A stretch of 64,000 nt of DNA from Calothrix brevissima NIES-22 (lineage in GTDB: Bacteria; Cyanobacteriota; Cyanobacteriia; Cyanobacteriales; Nostocaceae), in NCBI RefSeq assembly GCF_002367995.1, contig NZ_AP018207.1, positions 8,099,366 to 8,163,365 of the forward strand, given 5' to 3'. How positions within the stretch are numbered: position 1 is the first letter of the stretch; every line of letters begins with the position of its first letter. Below are positions 43,614 through 45,629 of this stretch, in pieces. Under the pieces are notes generated by a model that saw nothing but the letters and a program-made list of their open reading frames with translations, was not told the origin of the DNA and searched no databases. The position numbers and the translations under genes are program-made.

Positions 43614-45629
43614 TTATTTAGCAACAATTTCTTGTTGAACAAAGCGAATTTTGGTAACTAATTCTTGACGAGCAGAAGCTTTGAGTAAATATCGAAATAT
43701 GAACCATCCTACGTAACTAATTCCAGTTAACTCAAAAACGAATGGTAGTAAGGGAATCTCATTAATTGCATTTAATAAAGCTATAACTAGCTTTGCTGCA
43801 ATTAGGGCTGCAATAATGAAAACGATACCGAGAATTAGTTGCTGGTTTTGGGAAGAAAATTTCGCTATATATTTAGGTAATTGCTTGAAAATTACCCAAA
43901 ATTTCCTCGCTATTAGCTGCCATTGAGATAATTGTAGTTGAGTTGGCGATGTATGAGTTTCCATTACTAAATTTTCCTCAACTGCGATCGCATCGCCTAA
44001 TGTAGTATTAACAGAATTAGCTTGTTGTACTTCGCTGTCCATAAATCTCCTATTTTCTTCAGTTACAAGCGTTTTCAGTTCTAAATTCCAGCCTTTTACC
44101 TCGGCTGTAGGGATAAATGACGAGTTACCCACCAGAGAATTTGTATCTACACAATCTTCCTGAGTCGAAATATCAGCATTATCCTCGAATACAGGCAATT
44201 CTTCGGCTTTAATATTCGCAGACAGTACAAATCTCTCAATCTCATCATCGCGGATATCAATACCAGCCAAGTTCATCAAAGGAGAGTAAATGGCATTGTA
44301 CAAGTCACGCGCCATATTCACTGCACCTTCAAATCCCATGTATGGCCCGTTGTGGTAACCATGACCGTTGATGTATGGTAGGTGCAATTTCTTCACCAAT
44401 GCACCGACACGAGGCCCAGTCAACACTACATCAGGACGAATCATCTCTAGAACTTCAAAGAATTCTAGTTCATTACCATCATCAATATAGATTGTGCCTT
44501 CTTGACCTCTGGCAATCACCTTTTCAAAGTCTTCTTGGTGTCCAAACTTGGAAGACATGGATACTACTTGCATTCCTAAGTCATCTTCCAATGCTTTTGT
44601 CCAGTGCCATAGTCTAGGGCCTCCTGTCCAAATACAGACTTTTTTACCTTTGAGTCTTTCTTTATACCAATTCATTTTGTCTTGGTATTTGGCGACTTCT
44701 TCAGCAATCACGGCTTCGGCTCTGTCTTCAATGCCAAAGAAAGCACCGATTTTCCGTAATGCTTCTTGACAATAGTCAAAGCCCCAAGTGTCTACGTCCA
44801 TCCGGGGGATGCCGTATCTTTTCTTGAGTTCGTTGGCAATATAACCGGCACTCCGAGCACAGTTAGTCACGTTGAGTTGCGCTCTGTGCATTCCTCTGAG
44901 CGCGTCATAAGTACCGTTTCCTGTAAAGTGGGCGATGATTTGCACGCCCATTTTTTCCATGTACTTCTCCAGTACAAAGGTGTCACCTTGGATGTTGTAG
45001 TCGCCGATGACGTTGATGGTGTAGGGTGAGGTAATTTCTGGTTCAAATGTGCCGACTTTTTCGTTAATCCAAGCGATGTTGAGGACGTGGTGTCCTTTGG
45101 ATTGGCTCACTCCAGCAAATCCGGGACATTCTACACAGAAAATGTCTACATCACCTAGTTCTTTTTGGGCACTTTTGACTACTGCTCTGATGTCATCACC
45201 AATCAAGGCGGTGGCGCAGGTTGTGTAGACTATCATCCGTTTGATGTCGGGGAATTCAGCAAAGGCTTCCAAGATAGACTTTTTGAGTTGCTTTTCTCCA
45301 CCAAACACGATGTGTGACTCTTTCATGTCTGATGACCAGACATATTTGAGTTGGAAGTGTCCGTTGTCGCTGGGATAGCGTTTGGTGTGCCAGGTGTCGT
45401 AGGCGCAACCGATGGGGCCGTGTATCATTTGGATGGTGTCTTTGAGTACACCACCAATTACGAGTTTCGCGCCGCAATAGCTACAGCCTCTTTCTGAGAG
45501 TGAGCCGGGGATGGTTTCGATGTTCGATAGTGGTAAGAATTGGGTGGTGTCTTCTCCTTTTTCTTTGATATAAACGTGCTTTTCCCGTTCGGGAATTGTT
45601 TCGTCACATTTCAATAGTTTCAATGGCAT
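43614..45629 (-). CDS. vnfD: Vanadium nitrogenase alpha subunit fused to a C-terminal CAAD membrane domain
   Basis: 671 aa, against ~474 aa for VnfD. Residues 1-470 match VnfD along their length. P-cluster cysteines are Cys49, Cys75 and Cys138; FeV-co ligands are Cys257 (NCARS) and His423 (NGHGYHNG); the carbonate-loop TGGPRLW is at 335-341. A ~100-residue acidic linker follows. Residues ~575-663 form a CAAD domain ([11 protein letters not shown], two membrane helices at ~597-621 and ~629-648, then [11 protein letters not shown]), otherwise known as an appendage of some cyanobacterial tRNA synthetases and in CURT1-like thylakoid proteins. In Anabaena variabilis the C-terminal fusion is VnfG. 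No vnfK or vnfG is in the window. The ATG at 45629 has CAGGAG upstream and matches the A. vinelandii start. Confidence 0.93.

Follow-up and report, generated by a model that had tools for sequence, protein, structure and literature searches.

In A. variabilis the alpha subunit of V-nitrogenase, VnfD, carries VnfG at its C-terminus, vnfDG is followed by vnfK, vnfE and vnfN, and expression of vnfDG is driven by the promoter of ava4025, a gene for a solute-binding protein that lies upstream of it; the vupABC genes are also known from this strain (PMC4284476). CAAD is a membrane-targeting domain whose thylakoid location has been reported for aminoacyl-tRNA synthetases: it anchors ValRS of Anabaena PCC 7120 in thylakoids, brings it to membranes in E. 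coli as well, and ATP synthase subunits were pulled down with GFP-CAAD (PMC4893482). In mature heterocysts ValRS-CAAD is said to occupy the honeycomb membranes, where Cox2 and Cox3 are also placed (PMC11500504). The two themes meet in lichen Nostoc, for which Gagunashvili and Andresson described in 2018 a VnfD duplication in which the carboxy terminus is a CAAD domain, with strains 210A, 213 and 232 among those studied (PMC5987646). Nelson et al. (2019) reported that the vnf cluster is conserved and that vnf genes lie on plasmids in strains C52 and C57, and a word search of the main text of that paper returned neither CAAD nor fusion (PMC6645180). Within the open-access literature, PMC5987646 alone combines VnfD with CAAD and we found no paper extending it; nor did we find vnfDG, Nostoc and inversion treated together, or recombination between vnfD genes.

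We analysed a stretch of 64,000 nucleotides from Calothrix brevissima NIES-22 (hereafter the window), in which an initial annotation had proposed a VnfD fused to CAAD. Its coordinates and the residue numbers of its ligands proved correct, and the gene divides as follows.

43614–45629, minus strand: vnfD-CAAD gene of 671 amino acids, a single open frame (TIGR01860, 1015.9 bits; CAAD, 86 bits)
44244–45629, minus strand: VnfD body, residues 1–462, with 99.4% protein identity to the VnfDG of the same genome
43875–44243, minus strand: variable linker, residues 463–585; VnfDG homology stops near its start
43623–43874, minus strand: CAAD domain, residues 586–669 (PF14159; hydropathy), with two hydrophobic segments

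Translation of the 671 residues gave no internal stops. Pfam matched Oxidored_nitro at residues 49–447 (294.6 bits) and CAAD above its cut-off of 30.7 bits, with no match to a VnfG part, and the NCBIfam VnfD equivalog covered residues 2–462 against a cut-off of 823.1 bits, the AnfD, NifD and NifE models all scoring below their own cut-offs. Cys49, Cys75, Cys138, Cys257 and His423, together with the TGGPRLW loop at residues 335–341, which we take to be the P-cluster and cofactor ligands of VnfD, are all present and are invariant in 16 aligned VnfD-type proteins, six of them fused; the full VnfD body claimed for this protein holds. The proposed linker exists and at 123 residues is slightly longer than the ~100 first given, and CAAD was found in the C-terminal region where it was expected; its description as a membrane-targeting domain is borne out by the work on ValRS (PMC4893482).

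Compared with the VnfDG of A. variabilis, the fused protein has the same VnfD body, nearly the same fusion point and the same vnf gene set, but ends in CAAD rather than VnfG (PMC4284476). The CAAD-bearing aminoacyl-tRNA synthetases likewise join a soluble enzyme to a CAAD anchor, which here stands at the end of a nitrogenase subunit instead (PMC4893482). The view that CAAD on a nitrogenase subunit is an unprecedented arrangement has to be given up, as the lichen Nostoc protein, in print since 2018, has the same architecture and came with the same suggestion of thylakoid targeting (PMC5987646; strain 210A is L029 here). Against the one main-text passage of that report, we describe a wider distribution, a tail family, concerted evolution, changed flanks and an inversion; the fused protein is thus already known, and within the open-access literature the concerted evolution and tail exchange of the vnfD genes appear to be new.

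Fused copies lying wholly on one contig were found in 11 genomes, one in each and the window's included, and every one is a single frame; Pfam, re-run on four of these complete copies, matched both domains, and the fused frame is also open in the DNA of Nostoc C052 and C057. A frameshift or assembly join of two genes, the outcome named beforehand as speaking against the fusion, is excluded in practice by these intact frames. What could be taken as a sign of such an artefact comes from PLSDB, where the gene tables, which omit pseudogenes, give only a 408-base CAAD protein at the C052 and C057 sites (L238 and L239), although the DNA there has an intact VnfD-CAAD frame. The short entries indicate a fusion hidden by annotation, and we regard an artefact of sequencing or assembly as extremely improbable.

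The fused gene is not the only vnfD of the cell, an idea that was rejected on finding an ordinary vnf cluster about 216 kb away. Among the 21 nitrogenase component 1 family matches in the window's genome, this cluster (C1:8356285-8362818) accounts for VnfDG (a 606-residue frame, with the genome's single VnfG match), VnfK (C1:8359519-8360799) and two further component 1 genes, which are taken as vnfE then vnfN because the first scores as more alpha-like and the second as more beta-like, and because of the order in A. variabilis (PMC4284476). The VnfK at the matching place in a related genome (G022) is 100% identical to that of the window's genome, and was scored in its stead with TIGR02932 (900.5 bits; cut-off 873.95). 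In the window's genome a normal vnf set is accompanied by a second, near-complete VnfD with a CAAD end, a duplication of the 2018 type. The following genes surround it.

46106–46594, minus strand: ribbon-helix-helix plus Mop/TOBE protein, upstream of vnfD-CAAD (Pfam)
42594–43415, minus strand: vnfH-like nitrogenase iron protein, directly 3′ of the fused gene (TIGR01287, 407.9 bits; cut-off 394.35)
42159–42518, minus strand: 119-amino-acid protein with homologs in relatives, where it adjoins vnfH
40554–41705, minus strand: VnfR-like regulator, from similarity to the window's other copy and the A. variabilis literature (PMC4284476)
39231–40394, minus strand: homocitrate synthase (nifV-like); a homolog in the matching position of Nostoc C052 carries the annotation nifV
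36073–38908, minus strand: three-gene ABC transporter, probably for vanadate (vupABC-like, substrate putative), with homologs in the same cluster

The ribbon-helix-helix and Mop/TOBE (metal-binding) fusion is a candidate metal-sensing regulator. The other VnfR-like copy, at 55668–56807, has helix-turn-helix and PBP_like domains by Pfam, and homologs in relatives match both copies at about 60–90% identity. The C052 homologs of the transporter are annotated as ABC transporter genes. In several relatives a vnfH-like gene adjoins the fused gene; in G158 it adjoins VnfDG, and the Fischerella stretch around the fused gene contains none. The 119-residue protein matched nothing in Pfam or NCBIfam at E <= 0.001; it is related to a second small protein of the window (57298–57717), and its homologs lie beside vnfH in vnf clusters both with and without the fusion. 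The window also contains, at 47672–55141 beside the vnf genes, a further set of nifE, nifX, nifN, nifE-like and nifH genes, in which the second nifE falls just below its cut-off and the nifH product runs ~45 residues, many of them charged, past its family model.

A species-genome scan, with 80 of 109 relatives retained, gave at least five VnfD-CAAD proteins besides that of the window, in Nostoc carneum NIES-2107, Nostoc NMS4, Nostoc 210A, Fischerella muscicola PCC 7414 and Brasilonema CT11. In a second scan, 217 genomes belonging to the window's family were searched with a profile built from six tails, and 216 gave a CAAD-like match; a tail of the VnfD-CAAD class was present in 19 (163–210 bits), including the window's genome and the five carriers, the next-best match being a 177-residue stand-alone frame at 154 bits. 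These 19 tails comprise 11 complete fused frames, four preceded in frame by a partial VnfD up to the contig end, and four cut inside the linker and assigned from the tail alone. The intact fused frame on the Nostoc C057 plasmid is additional to the 19. In eight of the 19 the contig ends inside the fused gene, as expected where twin copies confuse assembly, and with near-identical copies coinciding with draft contig breaks and incomplete annotation the gene is easily missed.

Near-full VnfG was present in 35 of the 217 genomes (36 over the cut-off, one of them partial), and the fused gene occurred in 18 of these 35 and in one of the 182 others (Fisher's test, p about 9e-16, with related genomes not being independent), leaving 17 genomes with near-full VnfG and no fused gene. 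Of 12 genomes searched for vnfK, 11 gave a match of 872–900 bits, which exceeded the cut-off in 10. The single genome with a tail outside the VnfG group, G146, gave no match to VnfG and none to VnfK above the cut-off, and its tail contig begins inside the linker.

The 19 tails formed one group against 11 other, hand-picked CAAD sequences (88/85; 87% of 200 bootstrap trees), a set from which the CAAD match L026 of the window's genome was left out. The CAAD tail of VnfD looks like a family of single origin, and since the tails group together, repeated independent fusions are disfavoured, if not beyond doubt. In the window's protein the tail has two hydrophobic 19-mers, at ~598–616 and ~627–645, with Kyte-Doolittle values of 2.96 and 1.6, which would fit a membrane hairpin. 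Both segments reach at least 1.3 in 14 of the 19 tails; in the remaining five the second is weaker (0.85–1.27), and in four of these it lies below 1.18, the highest value that any 19-mer reaches in the soluble VnfD body. A structure model of the whole protein, of low confidence (mean pLDDT 56), placed helices at 569–589, 593–623, 628–635, 639–648 and 651–670.

The bodies behave differently from the tails: a VnfD-body DNA tree with 26 rows requires 11 changes for the 11 fused bodies, and the two bodies of one genome are sisters in seven of nine genomes. In eight of the nine the third-position difference within the genome was also smaller than that to any other of the 26 rows, for which the VnfDG of G130 and that of G137 (frame split) were left out of the 28 available. 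The values within the genome and to the nearest other were 0.076 and 0.123 for the window's genome (G000), 0.078 and 0.123 for N. carneum (G021), 0.117 and 0.128 for G022, where the margin is small, 0.121 and 0.288 for G033, 0.002 and 0.119 for G132, 0.048 and 0.119 for G138, where the differences are confined to the last third, 0.009 and 0.186 for G158, and 0.004 and 0.197 for G159. Three pairs thus differ by 0.2–0.9% within the genome and by 12–20% from the nearest other genome. The exception is Fischerella (G077), where the bodies are not homogenised, at 0.364 from each other against 0.288 for the closest row elsewhere. A tenth pair, that of G137, aligns over about 1390 bases without a mismatch and with a single 1-base gap; the two copies of the window's genome are identical over their first 300 bases, with similarity ending at about codon 462. 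As judged from the sequences, this likeness within genomes is the pattern of gene conversion, and of concerted evolution.

Two irregular frames were noted among these genes. In the one-contig genome G137 (C1:2871009-2872387) the vnfDG frame is split by the 1-base gap and vnfD-CAAD is intact, and a sequencing error is possible. In G130 (L207 5795-8444) the VnfDG frame has 802 residues with an internally repeated stretch, and vnfD fragments occur elsewhere, which is probably assembly trouble due to the twin genes.

We lean slightly towards a reading in which VnfD-CAAD is a membrane-anchored, catalytically normal second alpha subunit of V-nitrogenase, with a CAAD hairpin instead of the VnfG part, which would share the VnfK of the vnfDGKEN cluster, and in which homologous recombination acts between the twin genes, gene conversion keeping their bodies alike. 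CAAD would hold part of the VFe protein at thylakoids, most likely at the honeycomb membranes if the gene is expressed in heterocysts, and the anchored protein would sit near ATP synthase and terminal oxidases; on the analogy of ValRS-CAAD, VnfD-CAAD should place some VFe protein in these honeycomb membranes. A membrane-tied nitrogenase component would bear on where heterocyst nitrogenase is placed relative to ATP, electrons and oxygen removal, and the twin genes, which pair one body with two tails, amount to a natural experiment in which the role of the fusion is testable.

In Azotobacter, VnfG is needed for cofactor insertion, which counts against an active fused form that does not have it. 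VnfD-CAAD might instead be a membrane platform for VFe-protein maturation, holding VnfK and cofactor-loading proteins and passing VnfK or cofactor on to VnfDG, and the missing VnfG would suit this, as would the nearby genes for VnfH and homocitrate synthase, two proteins that also take part in making the cofactor. However, all ligands are kept, the body is held nearly identical to catalytic VnfD and the sequence carries no sign of a scaffold role, and we consider such a platform unlikely.

An anchored, catalytically normal subunit also has to be weighed against the fused copy being of little use. By simple count over overlapping pairs, dN/dS was 0.02–0.07 in the body (10 pairs), 0.49–0.93 in the linker (6 pairs) and 0.21–0.67 in the tail (14 pairs), and the tail seems to be retained under far looser constraint than the body. 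This looser constraint would be compatible with a by-product, a duplicated vnfD that caught CAAD once, spreads along with vnf regions that are in part carried by conjugative plasmids and is maintained by recombination, as would the patchy distribution, with at least five changes on the VnfK tree, and the location of the fusion-bearing vnf regions of Nostoc C052 and C057 on plasmids typed as conjugative. Nevertheless, the frames are intact in all 11 whole-contig copies and in C057, and dN/dS remains below 1 in the tail, which lies outside the converted part; we find it rather improbable that the fused copy is mainly such a by-product.

The tails have also changed their surroundings. When the upstream regions of 28 vnfD genes (up to 2.5 kb) were compared, together with gene order, the upstream flank and the tail type were not fixed to each other, with the flank changing in two genera. 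In the window's genus, the flank with the Mop protein lies 5′ of the CAAD form in the window's genome and G022 and 5′ of the VnfG form in N. carneum, and the flank with the solute-binding protein shows the opposite pattern, preceding the VnfG form in the window's genome and G022 and the CAAD form in N. carneum. Because this second kind of flank also precedes vnfDG in L031, L033 and L034, where no fused gene turned up, and in A. variabilis, the N. carneum arrangement seems to be the derived one. In Nostoc, the vnfH flank lies 5′ of the CAAD form in G132, G137, G138, G150 and G159, and 5′ of the VnfG form in G158, as it does outside the 19 in JL34, N. calcicola, Desmonostoc and Dendronalium; the vup flank lies 5′ of the VnfG form in G132, G138 and G159 (from gene order) and in G137 (from DNA similarity), and 5′ of the CAAD form in G158. 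A vnfH-before-VnfDG arrangement in G130 was not counted, its vnfD region being a patchwork of repeated fragments.

Over ~36 kb of alignment, G158 and G138 run parallel through vnfDG and its three following genes and again at the CAAD end, and every matching piece between the two vnfD genes is inverted, in a block of 15 kb in G158 and 21 kb in G138, ~7.5 kb of the latter, cox genes included, having no match in the G158 block. This inversion was read from assemblies as a comparison between species, and its breakpoints lie somewhere inside the vnfD repeat, in body or leader; G132 and G138 are parallel over their whole length. The leader, of about 490 bases, is 99.8–100% identical between the copies in G132, G137 and G138, 87% in G158 and 72% in G159, and in the first three of these leader and body form inverted repeats of ~1.9 kb. 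Five genomes outside Nostoc have only short or weak upstream matches between copies, and the direct orientation of the copies in the window's genome, G022 and Fischerella currently rules out a simple inversion there.

DNA inversion through recombination between inverted repeated genes is a known process, to which the Nostoc loci are alike in having similar inverted repeats and an intervening block in both orientations; here, however, the two orientations are seen between species only, and any reversible, regulated or site-specific nature would be conjectural. In the recombination we favour, a crossover between inverted copies would occasionally swap which upstream region has the VnfG tail and which the CAAD tail. 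The block could alternatively be a reversible switch, flipped in some of the cells or heterocysts, which would set the upstream region that drives the soluble VnfDG-K-E-N operon and the one that drives the membrane-tailed form. The long inverted repeats with their matching leaders are what such a switch would use, the bodies are identical in G137 save for the gap and differ at third positions by 0.2% in G132 and 4.8% in G138, and both the G158 inversion and the changed flanks in the window's genus fit; yet each assembly has a single arrangement and the copies are direct, not inverted, in the window's genome, G022 and Fischerella, and we give this version little credence. It is an outside chance that the whole is an exchangeable-tail system, in which flipping a block of vnfH, regulators, homocitrate synthase, vanadate transporter and, in some strains, cox genes would reassign the soluble VnfG and the membrane CAAD forms to different upstream control regions, possibly in a fraction of the cells as a bet on metal and oxygen conditions.

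Terminal-oxidase genes recur in these regions: coxBAC lies near the vnf block in Fischerella, Brasilonema, Nostoc C052 and Nostoc C057, and in N. carneum (L027 13234-16641) and G022 (L195 10968-13476) vnfD-CAAD is separated from vnfH by the cytochrome bd oxidase genes cydA and cydB, with none of this kind between the two in the window. As a mark specific to the fusion they were rejected: oxidase genes likewise lie close to vnf genes in genomes that do not have the fusion (L034, L040), and since, in addition, the cox stretch of G138 is unmatched in the G158 block, they provide no specific argument for CAAD. A set of coxBAC plus DUF2231 was seen in several vnf regions (L187 1809-5795; L189 6956-11053; L239 record positions 308878-313562), and the presence of coxBAC there suggests a terminal oxidase dedicated to V-nitrogenase conditions.
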